Source: Lactobacillus sp. UCMA15818 (GTDB taxonomy: Bacteria; Bacillota; Bacilli; Lactobacillales; Lactobacillaceae). Taken from it: DNA of 40,287 bases. Below are positions 1 to 40,287 of this stretch, one piece after another. The stretch is taken from the NCBI RefSeq assembly GCF_030400225.1, contig NZ_VJYB01000014.1, positions 1-40,287 of the forward strand. Direction: 5' to 3'. The position numbers were made by a program, and so were the translations under genes. The first letter of the stretch is position 1. Every line of letters starts with the position of its first letter. Below the pieces are notes generated by a model, which did no database searches, was not told the DNA's origin, and saw only the letters and a list, made by a program, of their open reading frames with translations.

Positions 1-72
1 TAATGGATTTTCACCATTTAAATATTCTTTAACAACTTTCAGCTTAAAACTGTAGGTATAATTACGTGTCAA
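1..72 (-). CDS. IS3/IS150-like transposase OrfA, N-terminal fragment (cut by window edge)
   Basis: Only the first 24 codons lie in the window. Read on the minus strand from a TTG at 72, the peptide begins (M)TRNYTYSFKLKVVKEYL, which looks like the helix-turn-helix start of OrfA proteins of IS3-family (IS150-type) elements. A GGAGG ribosome binding site sits 7 bases upstream of the TTG and there is no competing ATG. The gene continues beyond the left edge, so completeness and the presence of OrfB cannot be judged. Family assignment is by recognition of this short motif only. Confidence 0.6.
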   Translation of the reverse strand, partial: MTRNYTYSFKLKVVKEYLNGENPL

Positions 73-147
73 AAAAGCACCTCCAAAACTTGATTTACAC
101 GTCCAAGTTTTGTAAGGCACTTCACTTATGGCACACTCCCGTTAAAA
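73..147 (-). mobile_element. Upstream end of the IS3-like element with its terminal motif
   Basis: Between the transposase start and about position 140 lies the untranslated end of the element. Read on the minus strand its outer tip is GGGAGTGTGCCATAAGT (140 to 124). The same tip, with small changes, ends the intergenic palindromic repeats at 3494 and 35474 and marks the junction at about 40160. The exact outer boundary and any target duplication cannot be fixed because the other end is outside the window. Confidence 0.5.
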
Positions 148-3238: not shown

Positions 3239-3493
3239 TTTCTTCCCTTTCCTTATCAAAAATCTTTCGGTACAAATTTAGTGTCCTTCAACAATTCCCT
3301 GAAAAATATTCTTTGTAGAGCGCAACAGCCTATTTAAAATTAAAACTCCAAAAAATACCTCATTTAAAACCACTATTATTATAATAAATCAAAAGCTCTT
3401 TTACTACTTAAACACTTATTCTAAAATACATTTTGCCACCAGCGTACCATTCATAATTGACTCGCCCATTCGTTAAAATCAGGCACAACAAAA
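3239..3493. other. Intergenic stretch without recognisable genes
   Basis: AT-rich DNA upstream of the TMEM175-like gene. No convincing open frame, RNA gene or terminator was seen; only weak promoter-like AT tracts for the minus-strand gene. The segment ends at the palindromic repeat that starts at 3494. Confidence 0.4.
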
Positions 3494-3663
3494 GGGAGTG
3501 TGCCACAAGTTGGGGAAATTTGAGTACTAACTCGAAATTACGAACATAGCAGGCACTTTGCTATGAGTAATTCGAAGTTAGACGGAGAACTTTGACTTAT
3601 GAAACACGTTTATACGGAATAAATAGAGAAACTGAATCAAAATTTAACTTTTGACCCAGCTCC
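3494..3663 (+). repeat. Intergenic palindromic repeat, copy A (full) with terminator-like tail
   Basis: The element starts with GGGAGTGTGCCACAAGT and its palindromic part ends near 3607 with ACTTATGAAACAC, the approximate inverse of the start. The inner arms TAACTCGAAATTACGAAC and AATTCGAAGTTA also pair, so the whole unit can fold into one long imperfect hairpin with a tip near CATAGC...GCTATG. It continues into GTTTATACGGAATAAATAGAG and then a short inverted repeat, AAAATTTAACTTTTGACCC. The same unit occurs inverted at 35344-35474, and shortened versions occur elsewhere in the window. Confidence 0.85.
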
Positions 3664-3760
3664 AACAAAAAACTTAGAAAGTCGTTAAACAATCTAAGCC
3701 CATCTTTTCTATCCTATAAAATTATCTTAATCGAGAAAAAACTGAATCATAAGTTATATT

Positions 3761-4859: not shown

Positions 4860-5321
4860 ATGTCAAATTCAAGCAATGAATTATTACCTTTAAATGAACA
4901 CCTGTGCTTCTTGTTCTACGCAACTTCCAGAGCAATTCAGCGAGGATATCATCAAACTCTAGCAGAACAAGGTTTAACTTACCCACAATACCTAGTTCTA
5001 GTAATTTTATATGAACATCGCCAGCTCACAATAAAAGAAATCGGCACCTACTTAGCTTTAGACAGCGGAACAGTTACTCCTTTAATTAAAAGAATGACCA
5101 CTGCTGGATTATTAAGAAAACAGCGCGATAAGGATGATGAACGAATTGTCTATGTCGCGATAACACCCCAAGGACAAGAAAAAAGAATTGCAATGCAAAC
5201 ACTGCCTGATGTGTTATTAGATCATAGCCAATTATCCTCGACCGAATGGCAGCAGTTATCGCAATTGACAAACAAGCTATGGCACAATTTGCAACAAGCC
5301 GATTCTGAGCATAAAAACTAA
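4860..5321 (+). CDS. OhrR-like MarR-family regulator with N-terminal cysteine
   Basis: A 153-residue winged-helix regulator. The N-terminus LNEHLCFLFYATSRAI followed by LTYPQYLVLVILYE matches OhrR proteins, and Cys16 is at the place of the peroxide-sensing cysteine of that family. The helix-turn-helix is TIKEIGTYLALDSGTVTPLIKRM and the wing RKQRDKDDERIVYVAIT. The ATG follows AGGAGG by 9 bases. The usual partner, the organic hydroperoxide reductase Ohr, is not adjacent; the divergent neighbour is an esterase, so the regulon looks different from the classic one. A decayed second copy of this gene's 3' end lies at 14936-14959. Confidence 0.82.
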   Translation: MSNSSNELLPLNEHLCFLFYATSRAIQRGYHQTLAEQGLTYPQYLVLVILYEHRQLTIKEIGTYLALDSGTVTPLIKRMTTAGLLRKQRDKDDERIVYVAITPQGQEKRIAMQTLPDVLLDHSQLSSTEWQQLSQLTNKLWHNLQQADSEHKN

Positions 5322-5365
5322 AAAGAGGTTGTGCCATCATTATTAAAATTTGGCATAACCTCTTT
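5322..5365. terminator. Bidirectional terminator between marR and the SDR gene
   Basis: AAAGAGGTTGTGCCA pairs with TGGCATAACCTCTTT around a 14-base loop, with A-runs on one side and T-runs on the other. It lies between two convergent genes and can serve both. A near copy is present at 14960-15003. Confidence 0.8.
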
Positions 5366-5387
5366 AATTATTACTATCAATATACTC

Positions 5388-5416
5388 CATAAGTCAAAAC
5401 TTAATTTTTGACCCAG
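5388..5416 (-). repeat. Fragment of the palindromic repeat family
   Basis: CCATAAGTCAAAAC followed by TTAATTTTTGACCCAGG matches the end and the terminator-like tail found at the other copies (compare 3638-3661 and 35318-35342). Only the tip and tail remain. Confidence 0.5.
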
Positions 5417-5476
5417 GTTAATAACTTTGTGCTATTATTCTAATTTTACAGACTTATATCATCTTTGTTTCTCTTG

Positions 5477-6355
5477 TTAAATTAAGTCTGCTAAACCTAT
5501 TCGCTCTAAAAATGCTGCGCGGTTAGTATCTGCCACGTCAGAAACTTTTTCAGAGCCATCATCAGCAGGATCAACATGAACCCGATAAGGCCGTTGTCCA
5601 GCGGGAGTCGAGACAATCTTGACAACTTCATCAGCCACTAACTGCGCAGAGCTGTCACTTGGTGCCAATTGTGCTAACTTTTCGCCTACCTGCTGCATTA
5701 AGTTAGGGTATTTACTGTCATATTCAGCTGCTACAGCATCGTCTGCTGGGTGTCCAGCATGCTGAAAATGATTGGTCCCTGAGGTAAATGAACCTGGAAC
5801 AATAATTGAAGTCTCAACACCAAACCGCTTTAATTCAGCTGCATAAGAGACAGCTAAGGCATCCATCCCAGCTTTGGCGGCAAAATAAGGTGCTAGGTAA
5901 GGTGGAGTTCCGCCTTTAACACTTGAGCTTGAAACCCAGAGAACTAAACCATGCTGTTGTTTACGCAACAATGGCAATACAATCCGATTCACTCGTTGCG
6001 TTGAAATAACATTGATATCATACAATTCAGCTACTTGTGCCGGCGTAAAAGCCTCGGCTGGGCCTACCACCATATGACCAGCATTGTGCATAATAACGTC
6101 CAACTGCCCTTGTTCAGCAATAACTTGATCAACCGCTGCTTGAATAGAAGTCTCGCTATTGACATCTAACTCAATTGGCAAAAGCTGAACTTGATTGGTT
6201 TGCGCAAACTCTTGTGCAGCTAATACTTGTGGACGATTGCGCTGCATGGTTTCACGCATTCCTGCATAAACTATATTGCCAGCTAGTGCTAAGCTTCGAG
6301 CGCTCAAAGCTCCAAAGCCGCTGGAGGCACCTGTAATAACAATAACCTGTTTCAT
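5477..6355 (-). CDS. Short-chain dehydrogenase/reductase (SDR), classical type
   Basis: A 292-residue oxidoreductase. The NAD(P) fold opens with VITGASSGFGALSARSLA (TGxxxGxG), the NAG motif appears as HNAG, and the catalytic set is Ser in WVSSSSVKG with YFAAK as the YxxxK. The C-terminal ~70 residues extend past the usual 250-residue SDR length, as in larger SDRs annotated as oxidoreductases acting on aldehydes, ketones or sterols. Substrate is unknown. It is the last gene of a four-gene minus-strand operon, starting 3 bases after the tetR stop, with its AAGGAG inside the tetR end. Confidence 0.85.
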   Translation of the reverse strand: MKQVIVITGASSGFGALSARSLALAGNIVYAGMRETMQRNRPQVLAAQEFAQTNQVQLLPIELDVNSETSIQAAVDQVIAEQGQLDVIMHNAGHMVVGPAEAFTPAQVAELYDINVISTQRVNRIVLPLLRKQQHGLVLWVSSSSVKGGTPPYLAPYFAAKAGMDALAVSYAAELKRFGVETSIIVPGSFTSGTNHFQHAGHPADDAVAAEYDSKYPNLMQQVGEKLAQLAPSDSSAQLVADEVVKIVSTPAGQRPYRVHVDPADDGSEKVSDVADTNRAAFLERIGLADLI

Positions 6356-9610: not shown

Positions 9611-9827
9611 CAATAAATCATCTTACATAACTTACCCCAATGTGACACTTAGAGCCTCTCGTAGAACAATTTTTTTTATCTCAACATGCCAAATGTAATT
9701 AGCAGTTATTGCGTATATTATTTTAAATATTGTTGCTTTTCCAGCAAACTTTAGTCCAAAAAATAACCAGGATTCTTCCTTCTTTAATTGTGTTGAAATT
9801 TTTTTCAATACTAAGAAATTACCATAA
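9611..9827 (-). pseudogene. Decayed copy of the NodI-like ATPase gene (Walker A region)
   Basis: The plus-strand sequence here aligns with 1430-1655 inside the NodI-like ATPase: both share CCCCAATRTG near the start, GCCTCTCGT, TTTTATCTCAACATG, GCAGTTRTTGC and GYTTTTCCAGCA, in the same order and orientation, with a gap of about 20 bases. The frame is destroyed, so this is a remnant. Intact flanks of the gene are missing on both sides. Confidence 0.75.
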
Positions 9828-14780: not shown

Positions 14781-14933
14781 TTAAATCTCTCCCTTCATTA
14801 CTAGTTAATGATAATCCTAGTTTGTATCCATTCTGTTTGAAAAAGGTAACGCGGATGTAAAAAATAAGTAAAGTACTTGTAAGTTCTCATTTGCAATCAT
14901 CTTTATCTTTAATATTAGGTATACATTTACCAT
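14781..14933 (-). other. Upstream region of the ABC operon
   Basis: AT-rich DNA that must hold the promoter of the binding-protein operon. I could not choose one convincing -35/-10 pair and no clear cre site is visible. No gene. Confidence 0.35.
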
Positions 14934-15168
14934 AAGCCAATTCTGAGCATAAAAACTACAAAGAGATTGTGCCATCATAATTGAAGTCTGGCATAACCTC
15001 TTTGTTAATTGCTACTATCAACATACTCTATATAATTTTTGACCTAAATCCAGAATTTCGTGCTAATCTCCTATTTTTGCAGCCTTATATCATCTTTATT
15101 TCTCTTGCTAAATTAAATCTGCTAAACCTGTTTGCTCTAAAAATGTTGCGCGGTTAGCACCTGCCTTT
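14934..15168. pseudogene. Decayed duplicate of the marR/SDR convergent 3' ends
   Basis: This segment aligns over its full length with 5299-5540: the end of marR (ATTCTGAGCATAAAAACTA), the same terminator hairpin (14960-15003), the linker, and the antisense end of the SDR gene (TTGCTAAATTAAATCTGCTA, then CTCTAAAAATG and TGCGCGGTTAG). By eye about four bases in five agree. Only the two tails remain, so the genes themselves have been lost. The copy keeps the orientation of the source. Confidence 0.8.
14960..15003. terminator. Relic terminator hairpin
   Basis: AAAGAGATTGTGCCA and TGGCATAACCTCTTT form the same stem as the one at 5322, with small changes. It may still stop transcription from either side. 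Confidence 0.6.
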
Positions 15169-21105: not shown

Positions 21106-21163
21106 TAGGAATTAGATGGAAGATTTAACTTAGAGAACACGTTTATTTGAATTGATAAATGGG
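21106..21163 (-). repeat. Degenerate fragment of the palindromic repeat family
   Basis: The plus-strand text TTAGATGGAAGATTTAAC, then AGAGAACACGTTTATTTGAA and TAAATGGG, follows copy A (3578-3628) base by base with scattered changes. Only one arm is left. Confidence 0.55.
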
Positions 21164-21374: not shown

Positions 21375-24300
21375 CTAGCTTTTGAATCTTCTAAAAAATG
21401 CAACTAGAGCAATTAAAACAATTACTAAACTGCCCATTATTGATAACCAAATTCCAGACTCATATCCAGTTTGTGGTAACCCAAATTTATTCTTATCATT
21501 AGTCTGCTGCTTATTTGAATTATTAGTATTATTTTGATTAGTTGCTGGTAGATTCTCAGGATAATCTTTTACTGTCAGATTAACTAATTTATTAGTATTT
21601 TGAAATTCGACAGTAAACGGTATCTGTTTGGAACTCAGCTTATATCCCTTTGGTGCACGTATTTCAATAAAGTAATAATTTCCTGGTTTCAAATTATCAA
21701 CTTTGATTTGTCCCTTACCATCAGTTGTCAAGCCACTCGCAATCTTTGTTCCATCTGCTTTATACAGGTCAAAAACCGCTCCAGCTAGGACTTTACCAGT
21801 ATTCCCATCTTTCTTCGTTAAAACAACTGAGCCAGTTTTTTCTGCGTTTTTCACTGAAATAGTTGCTACCTTAGTCGTCGTTTGTAATTCAACAACAAAG
21901 CTATATTTAGTGTCTTTATTAAAATCATATCCGGCTGGGGCTGCGGTTTCCTTAAAGTAATAATTTCCTGGTTTCAGACTATCAACTTTAATTTGTCCCT
22001 TGCTATCAGTTGTCAAATCACTCGCAATATTTGTTCCATCTGCTTTATACAGATCGAAGGTTGCTCCAGCTAAGGCCTTGCCAGTGTCACCATCGGTCTT
22101 TGTCAAAATAACTGAACCAGTTTTTTCTGCATTTTCTGCAGATACAACTGCCACCTTGGCTGTTGTTTGTAATTCAACGATGAATCCATAATGCGTGTCT
22201 TTATTAAAATCATACCCGGCTGGCGCTGCGGTTTCAACAAAGTAATAATTCCCTGGTTTCAAACTATCAACTTTAATTTGTCCCTTGCTGTCAGTTGTCA
22301 AACCACTCACAACCCTTGTCCCATCTGCTTTATACAGGTCGAAAGTTGCTCCAGCTAAGACTTTACCAGTATCACTATCAGTCTTGGTTAAGAGAACTGA
22401 ACCAGTTGTTTCTGCATTTGCCGCTGAAACAGTCGCAACTTGCGCTGTCGACTGGAACACAACAGTGAAATTCTTCTTACTACTATCGAGCTCATATCCC
22501 GCTGGGGCTTTAGTCTCAACAAAGTAATAATCGCCTGGTTTCAAGCTATCAACTTTAATTTGTCCATTGCTGTCAGTTGTCAAATCACTCGCAATCTTTG
22601 TTCCATCTGCATTGTATAAATCAAAAGTTGCACCGGCTAGTGTCTTCCCAGTATCACTATCCGTCTTCGTTAAAACAACTGAACCAGTTTTTTCTGCATT
22701 TGCTGCCGAAACAGTTGCCACCTTGGCTATTGTTTGTAATTCAACAGTGAAGCCATAATGTGTATCCTTATTGAAATCATAGCCAGCTGGGGCTGCAGTT
22801 TCAACAAAGTAATAATTTCCTGGTTTCAGGCCATCAACTTTAATTTGTCCATTGCTGTCAGTTGTCAAATCACTCGTAATCTTTGTTCCATCCGCCTTAT
22901 ACAGGTCGAATGTCGCTCCAGCTAAAGCTTTACCAGTATCACTATCGGTCTTGGTTAAGAGAACTGAACCAGTTGTTTCTGCATTTGATGCTGAAACAGT
23001 CGCGACTTGAGCTGTCGACTGGAATATAACAGTGAAGCTCTTCTTACTACTATCAAGATCATATCCGGCTGGTGCTTTAGTCTCAACAAAGTAATAATCT
23101 CCTGGTTTTAACCCATTGGCTTTAATTTGTCCGTTGCTGTCAGTCGTTAAATCACTTTTGACCTTTGTTCCGTCCGCTTTATATAAATCAAAAGTTGCAC
23201 CGGCTAATGTCTTCCCAGTATCACTATCGGTCTTGGTCAAAATAACTGAACCGGTTGTTTCTGCATTTGCCGCTGAAACAGTTGCTACCTTGGTTGTTGT
23301 CTGTAATTCAACAGTGAAGCTCTTCTTACTACTATCAAGATCATATCCTGCAGGTGCTGCTGTTTCGACGAAATAATAATTTCCTGGTTTCAAATTATCA
23401 TAAGTGAGCTGTCCGTTACTGTCAGTTGTCAAACCACTCACAACCCTTGTCCCATCTGCCTTGTACAGGTCGAAGGTTGCTCCAGCCAACGGTTGATTGG
23501 TATCACTATCGGTCTTGGTCAAAACAACTGAACCGGTTGTTTCTGTATTTCCTACTGAAACAGTTGCTACCTTGGTTGTTGTCTGTAATTCAACAGTAAA
23601 ATCATAATGTGTGTCTTTATTGAAATCGTATCCCGCTGGAGCTGCAGTTTCAACAAAGTAATAGCTTCCTGGTTTCAAATTATCATAGGTAAGCTGTCCC
23701 TTGCTATCGGTTGTCAACCCACTTGCAACTTTGGTTCCATCCGCCTTATACAGATCAAATGTTGCTCCGGCCAACGGTAGATTAGTATCACTATCGGTCT
23801 TCGTCAGAATGACTGAACCAGTCTTTTCAGCATCACTAATACTAATTTTTTGCTGAATATTACCGCCATCAATTGTGAATGGCTTCTGGGTTGTATCCAG
23901 TTCATAACCTGCAGGTGCGTCTGTTTCAACTACATAGTATTTACCAGCATTCAAACCTGAATAGCTGATTTCTCCATTTTGATCAGTCGTCAACCCTGAT
24001 TTGACTAACGTTCCATCGTCTTTGTAAAGGCTAAAAACTGCACCGGTTAACGGTTTGGCAGTATCACTATCGGTCTTTTGAATCGTGATCTTTCCTTTTT
24101 CATTAGTAATCGACTGAATGACTTGATTAGCAGCATTAGCATCACTATAGTTGACAGTGATTTCTTTACCACTCGCCAAAGCTGATGAGATCACATAACC
24201 ATCTGGCGCTGAAGTCTCAACTAAAATATATTTACCTGATTTTAAATTATTCCATTGCAATTGGCCATCAGAATCAGTTGTTCCTGAGCGCAACAGTTGC

Positions 24301-27300
24301 CCTTTTGCACCTGAAACATCTGAATACAATTCAAAACTAGCTCCAGCAATTGCAGCCTTGCTGTCTGCATCTGACTTAGTTACTACTAAATTTGTATTCT
24401 TCCCCGAAGCTGAACCGCTATTGTTCACCACATTTGTAGATCCAATTGTGTTGCTTTCAACAGGCTTTTCACCCTGAGCATTTATCGAAGCTGTATTGGT
24501 AAGCTGATCATTTGTCAGTGATGAATTAATCAAAGAACGATAATCAATTGAATATGCTGTGGTAATTTTGTTCTTGAAAATAATCTGTAATGTTTGCTTC
24601 CCAGTCAGCTGATCCGTCTCCAAATCAATTGTGTAATCCGTACCTAACTGCAATGGACTACTCTTATCTTCAGTGAAGCTCCCATCAGCTGCGACCTTCC
24701 CCGGATAAATTACGATTGAATCTTGATCAATAATTTGATTATCCGAAGGCTCATCCTTAACAACAACACCTGTTAGAGTTGACTGTGCCTTATTAACCCA
24801 GATATTCCAAGTAGCATATGCTGCATTGGTTGGGTCCTGTTTACCAGTTTTCTCAACAACATTCCCACTATTTGGAACTGTAACTTGGGCTGCTAAAGTA
24901 CTCGAATTGCTGTTATTAACATAAGTCGCGGTATTATCATAGGTTGCTTGATCAATAACCTTATCAGCCAAACTCGTATCATACGTTAAAACATATGCTT
25001 TAGTGCTTCCTGCTGGCAGATTAGCTGTAATTGTCTTTGAACTGCTGTCATAACTGATGTCAGCATTATTAACCTGACTACCTTGAGTATATGATCCATT
25101 CGAATTGATAGTTGCCTCATATAATTTAGCGCTATCTGCCACATAATCTTGATCGCCAATGATTGGATCAGTGATCTTGGCATTTGTCAAAGTCCGTTGG
25201 TTATAGTTTGTTACAACATTCCACGTAATCTTTTTTGAGACAGCATTGTAACTACCAGATTTACTGCCATCGTTCTTAAATTCTGTTTTAGGAGTAAAAT
25301 CAGCACTCCCATTGTTTGTATGCTTTGTACCTGTTTGCTCATACCAAGTTGCAGTTGCAGTATTAGTCCACGTGCTCCCTGTAGGCAGCTTTTGTGTTTC
25401 AAAACTAGTCTTATAACTTAATGTGTACCAATCTTTAGCACTGTTAGCCAAATCACCCTTAAAAGCAATTGTAAACCCATTACCATCCTGAGTGACCGTA
25501 TAATCAGTCCCTTCTGTCAGGATTGCATTTGTATCCTTATCTTTTAAAACAAAGGAGTCATAATCAACCGTCAGACCATCTGGTACTGGATCCGTCATTG
25601 ACCAGTTCTTCATATCCTGACGTGCTTTGTTAATGTCAAAGTTCCATGTAGTGGTTTTGGCATTATAATCAACAGTTCCTAATGACTTGGTTAAGCCTTG
25701 TTGACCAACAGTCTGCTTACCTGCATCAGTTGTTTGCTCATCACTAGTAACCGAGTTATTGATTGTGGTGCTACCATCAATAGCTGCCGTCACTTGCGAT
25801 TGATACGAAATCTTAACACCTTGTGTCAGACCATTGACAAAATTAATTGTCATTATTGACTTATCTGAACTATAACCCACAGTGTAATTGGCTGATGGAA
25901 CAGTAGTACCATCTTCATAAGTTAATGTAGGTGTACCCGAAAAGGCCTGCCCAGCTGAAAGAGTGTCGACCAATGTTGCCTGATCAGCTGTTAGACTCTT
26001 TTCTCCATAATTATAATTAATATGCCAGTTGTACTTTTGACCCCCATTATTATCCTGCCCATCATAGGCTTTTTGGAGTAATTTCCCATAATTGGCACTC
26101 ACAGTTGCCGTTGCTGGTGAGTCTTTTCCATCATTACTCAAAGTCGCTGTATTTGTAAAAGTTATGTTACCACCATCATTAGGAATAACAGAACTACTGC
26201 TATCAATATCCGTTTTATATTCGATTTTGAATGCTTGGTAGGTATCAGCATAACCACCAATGAATGTGACTGTACCATTTGAATCAATTGTATAATCAGT
26301 TCCCGCAACCAACGCAGCACCTGTAGCCGTTACTTTACCTGTTTGATCAACTGTTTGTGGATAAACAGCCACCGAGTTTAACTTAGTTCCATTTGGTAAT
26401 GGATCGGTAACAGTTGCATCCTTCAATTCATTGCTATTAGTATTAATTGTTACATCCCAAGTGATACCGGTTGGATTATTACCAGAACTATTCGCACCGG
26501 TTAAAGTCCCAGCTTTTGCAATAGCACTTCCTCCAGTCGGCTTAACAACAATTGGAAAACTGACTGGCCCAGCAGTTGTATCAACTATAATATTTTGTTT
26601 TCCCGTTGTATAATCACTTGAAATACTTGAAGTATAATTAAAATCTCCACTAATAGTATCATGAGAATCAACTTTATCATTGAAAGTAAAAGTGACCTTA
26701 CCATCACTAGTAATTGTGTAAGTTCCAAAGTCTCCTAATGAACCTGTTCCCGGTTTATATTGAACTCCACTTGGAAGACTAAAAGTAAAGTAATCTCCCC
26801 CTTTTATCTGATAGTTATCCGTCAGATTATTAGGAATTGACCACTTGTAATCAAAGTTCAAATTGGTCTCAGATGTAACATCATTAGCGTCAACTGCATT
26901 CCCCTTTGAATCAGTGAAAGCAAGCGTTGCACTATCAATAATCGTACCATTTGAAGCACTTGGTAGATATTGCGAGATGTCATTGCCACTGTTTACCGCA
27001 AGAGATACAACTTTACGAGTTGCTGCGCTTGATGAACTGGCTGAACTCGATGAAGCCGAACTAGAAGAACTGGCTGAACTTGACGAACTGGTCGTATCCG
27101 AGCTGGAAGAGCTAGTCGCACTTGATGTGCTCGATGAACTTGATGCCGCTTCCAAGCTAGCCGTAACTTTTTGTGCCTGCAATCCAAATTGTAATGTGCC
27201 CGTCAAAGATGAATCATCAGCTAAGTCCAATTTCAAAGTTACCGTTCCTTGTGCGTTAGCTTTGCTTGATAAGATTAACTGACTATCCGTAACTTGATAT

Positions 27301-27614
27301 TGTCCAAGTACAGTTGAATTATCGCTAGCAGTTATTGCTTCATTTGTAACCTGCTTCAACTTCACATTGTCTCCCGAACTAATATCTATTTTAGTCGTTT
27401 GTTCTTGGTCAGTTGAATTATCCAACTGAACTTTCAAATCAACTTGCTTCTCGTTGCTAGTATCCTGTTGTGCAGATATTAGCTTAATAGATGTTGAAGT
27501 ATCACTGACTTGATCAGTCGTAGTCGCATCAACAATCGGCGTAAATATCTGCAATAATAACACAAGTGCTAGACTCACCGAATATACCCTTTCAAACCAT
27601 TTTGTTTTCCTCAC
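21375..27614 (-). CDS. Giant LPQTG-anchored adhesin with collagen-binding-type and ten SpaA/Cna-B domains
   Basis: A surface protein of about 2079 residues. Order: basic signal peptide (VRKTKWFERVYSVSLALVLL), a ~110-residue strand-rich segment, a Ser-rich linker near residues 160-200, an N-terminal adhesin domain, about five ~140-residue collagen-binding-type domains, ten ~94-residue Cna-B/SpaA repeats, a hydrophilic NQNNTNNSNKQQ linker, then LPQTG (2046-2050), a membrane helix and RRFKS. Each Cna-B unit shows a strand Lys (LTKTD), the Glu of VETxAPxGY and a final Asn or Asp, the set that forms Lys-Asn/Asp isopeptide bonds. GTG at 27614 with AAGGGGAGA 6 bases upstream is the likely start; a GTG at 27650 is poorer. 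Sortase anchors it to peptidoglycan; the ligand is unknown. Confidence 0.88.
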   Translation of the reverse strand: MRKTKWFERVYSVSLALVLLLQIFTPIVDATTTDQVSDTSTSIKLISAQQDTSNEKQVDLKVQLDNSTDQEQTTKIDISSGDNVKLKQVTNEAITASDNSTVLGQYQVTDSQLILSSKANAQGTVTLKLDLADDSSLTGTLQFGLQAQKVTASLEAASSSSSTSSATSSSSSDTTSSSSSASSSSSASSSSASSSSAATRKVVSLAVNSGNDISQYLPSASNGTIIDSATLAFTDSKGNAVDANDVTSETNLNFDYKWSIPNNLTDNYQIKGGDYFTFSLPSGVQYKPGTGSLGDFGTYTITSDGKVTFTFNDKVDSHDTISGDFNYTSSISSDYTTGKQNIIVDTTAGPVSFPIVVKPTGGSAIAKAGTLTGANSSGNNPTGITWDVTINTNSNELKDATVTDPLPNGTKLNSVAVYPQTVDQTGKVTATGAALVAGTDYTIDSNGTVTFIGGYADTYQAFKIEYKTDIDSSSSVIPNDGGNITFTNTATLSNDGKDSPATATVSANYGKLLQKAYDGQDNNGGQKYNWHINYNYGEKSLTADQATLVDTLSAGQAFSGTPTLTYEDGTTVPSANYTVGYSSDKSIMTINFVNGLTQGVKISYQSQVTAAIDGSTTINNSVTSDEQTTDAGKQTVGQQGLTKSLGTVDYNAKTTTWNFDINKARQDMKNWSMTDPVPDGLTVDYDSFVLKDKDTNAILTEGTDYTVTQDGNGFTIAFKGDLANSAKDWYTLSYKTSFETQKLPTGSTWTNTATATWYEQTGTKHTNNGSADFTPKTEFKNDGSKSGSYNAVSKKITWNVVTNYNQRTLTNAKITDPIIGDQDYVADSAKLYEATINSNGSYTQGSQVNNADISYDSSSKTITANLPAGSTKAYVLTYDTSLADKVIDQATYDNTATYVNNSNSSTLAAQVTVPNSGNVVEKTGKQDPTNAAYATWNIWVNKAQSTLTGVVVKDEPSDNQIIDQDSIVIYPGKVAADGSFTEDKSSPLQLGTDYTIDLETDQLTGKQTLQIIFKNKITTAYSIDYRSLINSSLTNDQLTNTASINAQGEKPVESNTIGSTNVVNNSGSASGKNTNLVVTKSDADSKAAIAGASFELYSDVSGAKGQLLRSGTTDSDGQLQWNNLKSGKYILVETSAPDGYVISSALASGKEITVNYSDANAANQVIQSITNEKGKITIQKTDSDTAKPLTGAVFSLYKDDGTLVKSGLTTDQNGEISYSGLNAGKYYVVETDAPAGYELDTTQKPFTIDGGNIQQKISISDAEKTGSVILTKTDSDTNLPLAGATFDLYKADGTKVASGLTTDSKGQLTYDNLKPGSYYFVETAAPAGYDFNKDTHYDFTVELQTTTKVATVSVGNTETTGSVVLTKTDSDTNQPLAGATFDLYKADGTRVVSGLTTDSNGQLTYDNLKPGNYYFVETAAPAGYDLDSSKKSFTVELQTTTKVATVSAANAETTGSVILTKTDSDTGKTLAGATFDLYKADGTKVKSDLTTDSNGQIKANGLKPGDYYFVETKAPAGYDLDSSKKSFTVIFQSTAQVATVSASNAETTGSVLLTKTDSDTGKALAGATFDLYKADGTKITSDLTTDSNGQIKVDGLKPGNYYFVETAAPAGYDFNKDTHYGFTVELQTIAKVATVSAANAEKTGSVVLTKTDSDTGKTLAGATFDLYNADGTKIASDLTTDSNGQIKVDSLKPGDYYFVETKAPAGYELDSSKKNFTVVFQSTAQVATVSAANAETTGSVLLTKTDSDTGKVLAGATFDLYKADGTRVVSGLTTDSKGQIKVDSLKPGNYYFVETAAPAGYDFNKDTHYGFIVELQTTAKVAVVSAENAEKTGSVILTKTDGDTGKALAGATFDLYKADGTNIASDLTTDSKGQIKVDSLKPGNYYFKETAAPAGYDFNKDTKYSFVVELQTTTKVATISVKNAEKTGSVVLTKKDGNTGKVLAGAVFDLYKADGTKIASGLTTDGKGQIKVDNLKPGNYYFIEIRAPKGYKLSSKQIPFTVEFQNTNKLVNLTVKDYPENLPATNQNNTNNSNKQQTNDKNKFGLPQTGYESGIWLSIMGSLVIVLIALVAFFRRFKS
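21560..24400 (-). repeat. DNA array of ten ~283-bp Cna-B coding repeats
   Basis: The adhesin's Cna-B units repeat about every 283 bases. The antisense landmark ACTGAACCAGTT recurs near 21826, 22109, 22395, 22680, 22963, 23246, 23529 and 23815. The eight units nearest the anchor are most alike and alternate between two subtypes, with either DFNKDTHY or DLDSSKKSF after PAGY, as expected from unequal crossing-over. The two distal units are more divergent. Confidence 0.85.
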
Positions 27615-27711
27615 ATTTGCTCTCCCCTTTAACTTTTTTATACAAATCACTAAAATCCCAAAAAAACAAGTAAGCTTTACCCTTTTTTATAAAAGATTAC
27701 TCATAATTTAC

Positions 27712-35313: not shown

Positions 35314-35342
35314 GGCTGGTCAAAAGTTAAATTTGACCAGCC
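35314..35342. terminator. Hairpin with terminator-like tail after ugpB
   Basis: GGCTGGTCAAA pairs exactly with TTTGACCAGCC around AGTTAAA. A T-rich run follows on both strands. It is the tail module of the palindromic repeat family and probably ends the ugp transcript. Confidence 0.65.
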
Positions 35343-35343
35343 C

Positions 35344-35474
35344 CTCTATTTATTCCGTATAAACGTGTTTCATAAGTCAAAACTCTCCGTCTAACTTCGA
35401 ATTACTCATAGCAAAATACTCGCTATGTTCGTAATTTCGAGTTAGTACTCAAATTTTCCCGACTCATGGCACAC
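35344..35474 (-). repeat. Palindromic repeat, copy B (full)
   Basis: Inverted relative to copy A and nearly identical to it over about 130 bases. It begins with CTCTATTTATTCCGTA, then GTGTTTCATAAGTC (from 35365), and ends ACTCATGGCACAC (35462-35474). Inner arms TAACTTCGAATTACTC and GTAATTTCGAGTTA pair into the same hairpin. Confidence 0.88.
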
Positions 35475-35476
35475 TC

Positions 35477-35545
35477 TCTCTATTTATTCCGTATAAACGT
35501 GTTTCATAAATCAAAATTCTCTGTTTAACGCTAAATTTTGAGAAT
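35477..35545 (-). repeat. Palindromic repeat, tandem partial copy B'
   Basis: Directly after copy B the unit begins again: CTCTATTTATTCCGTA, GTGTTTCATAAATC, AAAATTCTCTGTTTAAC, and then diverges into CTAAATTTTGAGAATTAC. The period is 135 bases. The second unit has lost its inner hairpin and far end. Confidence 0.8.
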
Positions 35546-37710: not shown

Positions 37711-37775
37711 GTGGCAGACAAAACACATTTATTCGTAATAATATAGAGAAACTAAATTAAAAGTTAAATTTTGAA
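37711..37775 (+). repeat. Fragment of the palindromic repeat family after lctO
   Basis: AAAACACATTTATTCGTAAT, ATATAGAGAAACTAAATTA and AAAGTTAAATTTTGA correspond to 3602-3657 of copy A (AAACACGTTTATACGGAAT and so on). The palindromic core is missing except for a TGGCA-like end. Confidence 0.6.
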
Positions 37776-37780
37776 GTGCT

Positions 37781-37825
37781 CCATAATCATTAGACAAAAA
37801 TCTAATTATTATGGGGTATTTTTGA
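37781..37825 (+). terminator. Terminator after lactate oxidase
   Basis: CCATAATCATTAGA pairs with TCTAATTATTATGG around CAAAAA, followed by GGTATTTTTG. Confidence 0.85.
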
Positions 37826-38030: not shown

Positions 38031-38036
38031 TAGAGG

Positions 38037-38075
38037 GGCAGGGTCAAAAGCTAAATTTTAACCTGGCTTCTTTTT
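38037..38075 (+). terminator. Terminator-like hairpin upstream of oppA-like gene
   Basis: GGCAGGGTCAAAA pairs imperfectly with TTTTAACCTGGC, followed by TTCTTTTTT. It is the same tail module as at 3638, 35314 and 39814, but here it precedes a gene. Confidence 0.55.
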
Positions 38076-38155
38076 TATTCCAGATAAATGTGTTCTATAA
38101 GTCTAAGTCAAAATTTTCCGCCTAACACGAAATTTTACCGCTTTATGACACACTT
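38075..38155 (-). repeat. Palindromic repeat, internally deleted copy C
   Basis: TTTATTCCAGATAAATGTGT, CTATAAGTC, CAAAATTTTCCGCCTAAC and finally TTTATGACACACTT follow copy B from end to end, but the inner hairpin arms are missing. Both termini are kept, which supports the unit borders. Confidence 0.65.
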
Positions 38156-39967: not shown

Positions 39968-40159
39968 ACAAATGAAAAACACTATAAAAATGTTTTAAAA
40001 GGCGGTCGTTATCGAAAAGAAGATTTTGAAGTCGTTTATCGAACCTTAATTTGTGACGAACCATTGAATCCACAATATACTGATCATCCGTTGGTCAATC
40101 GTAAGCCAGAGCGGGATCTCCATATAAAACCTGATTGGCTATTAATCTATAAATATGAT
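39968..40159 (+). pseudogene. YafQ/RelE-type mRNA-interferase toxin remnant
   Basis: A frame without a start codon encodes TNEKHYKNVLKGGRYRKED, then FEVVYRTLICDEPLNPQYTDHPL and DLHIKPDWLLIYKYD. The DHPL and HIKPDWLLIYK blocks are the active-site core of YafQ-family toxins. The first ~15 residues and the last ~15 (which hold the final catalytic His) are absent. The 3' side runs straight into GGGGGCTGTGCCATAAGT, an IS/repeat-like end. No antitoxin gene is upstream. A dead toxin gene interrupted by an insertion is the simplest reading. Confidence 0.72.
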
Positions 40160-40287
40160 GGGGGCTGTGCCATAAGTCCTAAGTAAAAGAGCCACATTAG
40201 AAAAAATAATAATTTTTCTAGTGTAGCTCTTTTGGTATAATTGAAAATAAAAAAAGCACTGGTTGCAGCCAGCACCTTCAAAAACAA
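40160..40287. mobile_element. Probable end of an insertion element
   Basis: The tip GGCTGTGCCATAAGT resembles the IS end at 124-140. It is followed by a long hairpin (AAAAGAGCCACATTAGAAAAA at 40185-40205 with its near-inverse at 40213-40233), typical of IS or transposase-gene ends that block readthrough. The element continues past the window; no transposase sequence was identified, though minus-strand frames stay open to the edge. Confidence 0.4.

Follow-up and report, generated by a model that had tools for sequence, protein, structure and literature searches.

A probable IS1182-family MITE of Liquorilactobacillus that inserts at hairpins, many of them terminator-like

Background

Among the small repeats of bacterial genomes RUP has an IS630-type mobiliser, and IS1397 is an insertion sequence (IS) that targets REP elements. 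The closest described relatives of the repeat reported here are IS1272 and TnSha1, members of the IS1182 family from Staphylococcus, which transpose by replacing an inverted repeat or stem-loop (PMC5678879; PMC4923244). In the parts of these papers accessible to us, the target hairpin is often a terminator and is deleted, the sites lie immediately downstream of genes, tandem left-end structures are reported for IS1272, and new IS1272 insertions are described as free of duplications, with a duplication pathway figuring only as a possible model. In these papers and in the others that we found, IS1272 and its composites are the elements for which transposition by hairpin replacement is described. 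A MITE whose terminal repeats are like those of an IS1182-family IS is known from Paracoccus yeei (MITEPye1, PMC11578231); it has 1-3 chromosomal copies with direct repeats at their borders, and hairpin replacement is not described in the accessible part of that report. RUP, BOX and SPRITE of Streptococcus pneumoniae are small and intergenic and insert into one another, SPRITE being terminator-like (PMC10969869), and REP/BIME sequences are high-copy palindromes that serve as specific IS targets (PMC1525189), as far as the accessible portions of these sources go.

Here we describe an element found in a stretch of 40,287 nucleotides from Lactobacillus sp. UCMA15818 (contig NZ_VJYB01000014.1, positions 1 to 40,287; hereafter the window). 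With IS1272 and TnSha1 it has in common an IS1182-family transposase as its probable mobiliser, the deleted and often terminator-like hairpin target, the position of its sites behind genes and the occurrence of tandem arrays. Unlike IS1272, it is a 170-bp non-autonomous element standing at about 93 sites, and some insertions of this system have duplications of 10-21 bp 3' of the hairpin. Its likeness to RUP, BOX and SPRITE is one of description only and their host is different, and it is set apart from REP/BIME by IS1182-family terminal inverted repeats. Thus, IS1182-type MITEs and hairpin replacement are each already known separately. In a literature search that left most subscription journals outside its reach, and in the accessible parts of what it returned, neither this repeat nor any MITE that replaces hairpins was described, and the combination of high copy number, terminator exchange and duplication beside the hairpin was likewise not encountered.

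Results and discussion

We aligned the 30 genomic copies that matched best, flanks included. This alignment revealed an element of about 170 bp, too short to encode a transposase. It starts with a left tip (GGGAGTGTGCCATAAGTCGGG) and an imperfect hairpin I, which spans some 114 bp; a conserved linker (GTTTATACGGAATAAATAGAG) connects this to hairpin II (AACTGAATCAAAATTTAACTTTTGACCCAGCCCC), which is terminator-like and the 3' arm of which forms the right tip. The left end is sharp in 26 of the 30 copies, three of the others being cut by an IS and one having diverged. The initial annotation, made from the window alone, had described copies A and B (Table 1) as inverted to each other and as folding end to end into one hairpin. 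The two are indeed mutually inverted, with 89% identity over 147 nt ungapped; the large hairpin spans only about 114 bp, and the unit continues through the linker into hairpin II. The fold of copy B beats 200 shuffles on both strands (z -6.2 and -6.9), and its arrangement, including the tandem remnant beside it, recurs in L. mali KCTC 3596 (L085, 5138-5299), where the surrounding stretch shares 97.7% identity with the window. The flanks of copy A are covered by none of the matches listed in other genomes, where 23 candidates were scored per genome.

Table 1. Copies of the element and other features located in the window
Feature	Position	Strand	Basis
Copy A, complete element	3494-3663	+	94.7% identity to the 170-bp consensus along its full length; one of the 30 aligned copies
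Copy A, hairpin I	3494-3607	+	
Copy A, linker GTTTATACGGAATAAATAGAG		+	
Copy A, hairpin II and right tip	about 3630-3663	+	
AACAAAA, candidate short target duplication of copy A	3487-3493, repeated directly after at 3664-3670		read in the sequence
Copy B, complete element but for 3-4 bp missing from hairpin II	about 35314-35478	-	94.6% to the consensus
Tandem partial copy, apparently the 3' half of an older element	35478-35529	-	52 bp, 92-94%; same tandem in L085
Internally deleted, diverged copy (left tip and right half)	38035-38154	-	74% over consensus 84-170, plus left-tip match
Decayed copy, with linker and beginning of hairpin II, disrupted by another small palindrome	37711-37775	+	judged by eye
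Weak remnant of right half	21106-21146	+	BLAST E 0.064, 78% over 36
Left tip of one more copy (140-124, GGGAGTGTGCCATAAGT), broken by an IS3-family IS that continues beyond the end of the contig	1-140	-	
End of IS1182-family IS (GGGGCTGTGCCATAAGTCC...), presumably the autonomous partner, truncated where the contig ends	40161-40287	+	same as other IS ends
Surface protein of 2091 aa with 285-bp repeats, collagen-binding and SpaA domains	21375-27650		LPXTG anchor match of 20.9 bits (cut-off 20), E 0.00035

Of the lesser copies listed in the initial annotation, the tandem partial copy near 35477-35545 and the internally deleted copy, placed at 38075-38155, are both present with slightly different borders (Table 1); of the three fragments, the one at 37711 is a decayed copy, recognised by eye and resembling other genomic copies with ACATTTATTCGTAATAA linkers, and that at 21106 is weak (BLAST E 0.06). 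The one at 5388 is unsupported: it belongs to a stretch that is found again, with 83-84% similarity, at 14925-15165. The tip with its IS3-family IS at 140-1 (minus strand) and the end of the IS1182-family IS at 40161-40287 had been overlooked. Duplicated stretches of the window outside the family, 75-84% identical, are 5287-5534 with 14925-15165 and 1487-1646 with 9667-9826, and they include the hairpin AAAGAGGTTGTGCCA...TGGCATAACCTCTTT. A small palindrome of the GAAGTGCYCCATAATNRTTAGACAAAA...TTATGGGG type, the tips of which we take to be IS3-like, interrupts hairpin II at window 37772-37822, at L158 and L009 of UCMA15818 and at L131 and L268 of genome G152. The right half of three UCMA15818 copies (L025, L174, L043) runs into similar sequence (CTTGGACTTGTCCTCAATGC...CAGCTAGATAGAGATGTAAATGCAAG), presumably the end of a tnpB gene.

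In the UCMA15818 assembly (2.58 Mb, 46 contigs) at least 43 BLAST matches were obtained, with 40 of 198 first-look candidates scored. A 26-base linker pattern with up to 3 mismatches recovers 93 sites, divided 45 to 48 between the two strands, as against none for the reversed pattern in the same genome; the further copies on which the initial annotation had made the family depend are therefore anything but few. Near-complete copies at unrelated loci are 88-98% identical, and a chance origin of the family is excluded. The linker pattern occurs in 6 of 151 genomes sampled across the family Lactobacillaceae, namely in all six of Liquorilactobacillus and in none of the 145 from other genera. A DNA search of 14 Liquorilactobacillus genomes found the element in 11, the exceptions being G151, G154 and G156. 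Exact matches to the linker pattern in named genomes amount to 43 stretches, all from Liquorilactobacillus (sucicola, capillatus, satsumensis and mali). Two plasmids of the genus carry the element at 87% identity, phage records gave no match to it, and Rfam covariance models had no match at gathering score in the window or in L030, L003 and L307.

We compared 21 UCMA15818 loci with the relatives G153, G066 and G152, setting segment borders by eye from the alignments. Ten loci were informative (L004, L006, L010, L011, L012, L013, L015, L019, L022, L042 and L047 gave no usable comparison), and at all ten the relatives lack the element, which supplies the empty sites that the initial annotation had expected of a mobile repeat. 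At six of these loci the relatives have a stem-loop, often terminator-like, where the element now stands: TGCCTAATTTAGGCA at L003, AAGAAGCTG...CAGCTTCTT at L005, CTGTGGT...ACCACAG followed by a T-tract at L007, ACAGTGATGCACTGT at L017, TAATTGTTTTA...TAAAACAATTA at L021, and CCGATTGATT...AATCAACCGG followed by a T-rich tract at L024. L020, judging from the alignment, is probably a seventh replacement that left part of the stem in place. The hairpin lost at L017 lies inside a coding HIT-domain gene, with an intact frame of 136 aa in the relative as against 108 aa in UCMA15818; hence the target is a hairpin and not only a terminator. The other outcome is seen at L018 and L027, where the element sits directly 3' of an intact terminator-like stem and about 10 bp are duplicated (TTTTTTGATT and TTTTTCTTTT, respectively); L028, with a similar but imperfect repeat, is probably a third site of this kind. 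Thus, the target duplications that the initial annotation had suggested looking for exist at two, probably three, of the 10 informative loci and are mostly absent otherwise, because the element usually replaces its target hairpin. Likewise, no general target duplication was seen by eye in the 30 aligned copies.

Two tests bear on the replaced segments. Among sliding windows of the same length from the relatives' loci, 0.03-3.3% close end to end as well as the six replaced segments do (for L017, its 15-bp core), while neither the L017 deletion taken at its whole length of 32 bp nor the footless L020 segment passes; this test covered 14 of 15 segments, L024/L229 being the exception, and the G152 version of L021 entered the shuffle test only. 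The stricter shuffle test, which counts perfect arms and ignores G-U pairs and mismatches, gave p < 0.05 for 8 of 14 segments; the six above this value include L017 (p 0.07) and, in two relatives, L007, whose stems depend on G-U pairs. At L005 the right junction is within hairpin II, and at L017 it is 17 bp past the hairpin foot, where those 17 bp are also lost; hence, there are exceptions to the joining of the right tip at the 3' foot.

The presumed autonomous partner is an IS of about 1.8 kb that starts with GGGGCTGTGCCATAAGTCC and has an inverted repeat at its other end. Its 549-aa protein is an IS1182-family transposase (NCBIfam NF033551, E 3e-91, above cut-off) with DUF772 and DDE_Tnp_1 domains, to which no solved structure is related by sequence at E 0.01. 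A DUF772 domain search gave 20 matches in G152, of which one fell below the cut-off, and a single match in UCMA15818. The UCMA15818 genome has one full IS copy, on contig C3, and IS 3' ends at the ends of contigs C4, C12, C13, C19, C21 and C43, so several copies have probably been collapsed in the assembly. In the window the IS at the right end appears, by eye, to interrupt a small frame (40040-40160) resembling a YafQ/RelE-type toxin. The left tip of the UCMA15818 element matches the IS tip at 15 of 17 positions and the right tip at 14 of 17, and the right end of L080/L092-type copies matches at 16 of 17. The interiors show no resemblance by eye, which argues against the element being a simple internal deletion of this IS. 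IS1182 homologues or fragments occur in 10 of 11 element-bearing genomes as against none of the three element-free ones (Fisher p 0.011, a value that overstates the co-occurrence because the genomes are related and not independent). The matches are fragments only in several genomes, with just two short ones in G122, and in G030, which has element copies, no IS1182 homologue was found.

Further, the IS itself behaves like the element. We examined 19 copies (18 of G152 and one of UCMA15818, leaving out L309 and the weak match L316) and sought empty sites for a minority of them. At L311, in an IS3 transposase gene, the IS stands without the palindrome CTGACGTCAG (CTGACGTCAGTCAG lost) and the next TCAG, all of which is kept in the intact IS3 copy; at L296 a 21-bp duplication lies one base 3' of the hairpin TCAACACGTTCGTGTTGA. 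Hence the IS shows both modes, hairpin loss and duplication beside a hairpin. Five of the 19 copies lie directly against a linker of the element, which would follow if hairpin II served as a target. The initial suggestion of a non-autonomous MITE is borne out by the 93 dispersed linker sites, the sharp left ends, the element-free sites in relatives and the tips common to a transposase-bearing IS. The element shows the tested features of a MITE except a target duplication of fixed length; this is still compatible with a MITE of this IS family, since the IS1272-type mode predicts none. From these sequence comparisons we infer that an IS1182-family transposase moves the element in trans.

Other mobilisers were considered. 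The initial annotation had also offered a REP/BOX-like element, and a REP/BIME-like repeat moved by a Y1 (RAYT/IS200-type) transposase would share the palindromic, intergenic, high-copy character and the role of target for other ISs; moreover, the UCMA15818 genome has a Y1_Tnp gene and 6 of 11 element-bearing genomes have a match. However, no Y1_Tnp match (PF01797) was found in the other five (G146, G096, G153, G155, G158), two of the three element-free genomes do have one, the sharp terminal inverted repeats are those of the IS1182-family IS and target hairpins are lost. We therefore reject Y1/RAYT as the general mobiliser, and a REP-like nature in the strict sense is not supported; the reading as a whole is highly improbable. 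A retro-transposed small RNA, i.e. a bacterial SINE, would account for 5'-truncated copies with intact 3' ends, for right ends joined to T-tracts and for variable left junctions. Yet the left ends are precise in most of the best-matching copies, many short copies are explained by internal deletions, and RVT_1 matches (PF00078) are missing from 9 of 11 element-bearing genomes, UCMA15818 included, with only G146 and G030 matching, but present in all three element-free ones (below cut-off in G154). As this distribution does not follow the element, the reverse-transcriptase model is rejected as having hardly any likelihood.

A third candidate is the IS3-family IS that sits inside many copies, where it separates GGGAGTGTGCCATAAG from AAGTCGGG and is flanked by AAG on either side, and that might mobilise a composite unit. 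Its right junction is at the same place in 15 of 23 fetched G152 copies; 13 of these also show the left junction, and at these 13 loci the IS3 is contained in hairpin I and bordered by AAG at each junction (the left one AAA at L138). The junction at window 140-1 (minus strand) is the same as in the IS3 copies of G152 and of UCMA15818 element copies. In G152, two variants of the IS3 3' end follow two element subfamilies (L126-L129 versus L116-L124), so that IS3 and element may in part have spread together, or gene conversion may have taken place. Against the IS3 as mobiliser, a junction (left or right) is present in only 9 of 93 UCMA15818 copies, one of which, L046, has the opposite IS end, and the ends of the IS3 differ from those of the element. 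Its position within hairpin I between AAG repeats reads as that of a later guest; on this ground we reject it as the mobiliser, a role that is very unlikely.

Hairpin II is itself a palindrome. Elements stand in tandem at window 35314-35529 and at C4:7886-8094 (C4:7894/8026), and in inverted order at L059. We propose that such arrays arise because hairpin II of the element is also a target: one element replacing the hairpin II of another would yield hairpin I-linker-[hairpin I-linker-hairpin II]. The tandem of the window would accordingly stem from a nested insertion of copy B into the hairpin II of an older copy. No empty site was seen for the arrays.

The orientation of the copies points to a possible function for hairpin II. 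The upstream gene is on the same strand in 56 of 71 UCMA15818 copies with a callable upstream gene, and this bias grows with linker divergence: 14/24 at 0 mismatches, 16/19 at 1 and 26/28 at 2-3 (first versus last class, Fisher p 0.007), or 13/23, 13/15 and 21/21 under a stricter gene length. The trend is weaker with age taken from hairpin I identity and equal flanks, where the counts are 22/30, 17/18 and 11/12 (first versus the other two, 28/30, p 0.08). That older copies mostly lie in sense behind a gene suggests domestication as terminators. In an alignment of 73 of the 93 copies (20 without a recognisable, complete hairpin II were left out by eye), covariation in hairpin II is 0.209 as against 0.133 in shuffles (0/500), with both sides changing in 11 of 15 pairs and in 92 cells as against 53 in shuffles. 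Copies with more divergent linkers fold no less stably in the region of hairpin II (median folding energy -8.0 in young and -11.8 in older copies, p 0.105; -8.5 versus -14.6 when only recognisable hairpins II are taken, p 0.04). Five or more T in the next 8 nt follow 18 of 53 strong-hairpin copies in the scanned stretch, a few of these hairpins not being hairpin II. Orientation, covariation and folding fit retention of copies as putative terminators; the hairpins of older subfamilies may, however, have been better from the outset, and the covariation could be due to palindrome correction instead of selection. Both termination activity and selection on the copies are thus putative. The same bias and covariation would also be expected of a vertically inherited, non-mobile terminator set shaped by selection. 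This reading is exceedingly improbable: the absence of the element from the compared relatives at the 10 informative loci already refutes it, and young copies have no orientation bias, one copy disrupts the HIT-domain gene, and near-complete copies with 88-98% identity occupy unrelated loci.

Taken together, it is very probable that the element is a MITE mobilised in trans by an IS1182-family transposase, which inserts at hairpins by inverted-repeat replacement or, less often, with a duplication of about 10 bp, and that its sense copies are kept as terminators. In this scheme the transposase would recognise the tips common to IS and element (GGGRSTGTGYCAWAAGT) and direct insertion to a pre-existing inverted repeat, the right tip being joined as a rule at the 3' foot of the target hairpin. 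The hairpin would usually be lost, as for IS1272, and in fewer cases about 10 bp directly 3' of it would be duplicated. Since the element has a terminator-like hairpin at its end and many of the target hairpins resemble intrinsic terminators, insertion could swap one gene terminator for another, and copies in sense behind a gene would then be kept.

Conclusions

A broader reading, which we offer tentatively and hold at somewhat less than even chances, is that of a genus-wide terminator-swapping system: a MITE that seeks out and removes gene-end hairpins and supplies its own terminator would insert almost harmlessly, with two outcomes at the 3' foot of the hairpin, replacement or a duplication of 10-21 bp, and dozens of gene 3' ends would have been rewired and kept by selection. 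The approximately 93 natural sites, together with relatives that keep the original hairpins, would constitute a large data set on what such a transposase recognises. They also provide a natural test of transposons becoming terminators, with young copies in either orientation and almost all of the older copies in sense. Should termination of transcription by the element prove real, this would be a mobile element that spreads with little harm by replacing what it destroys.
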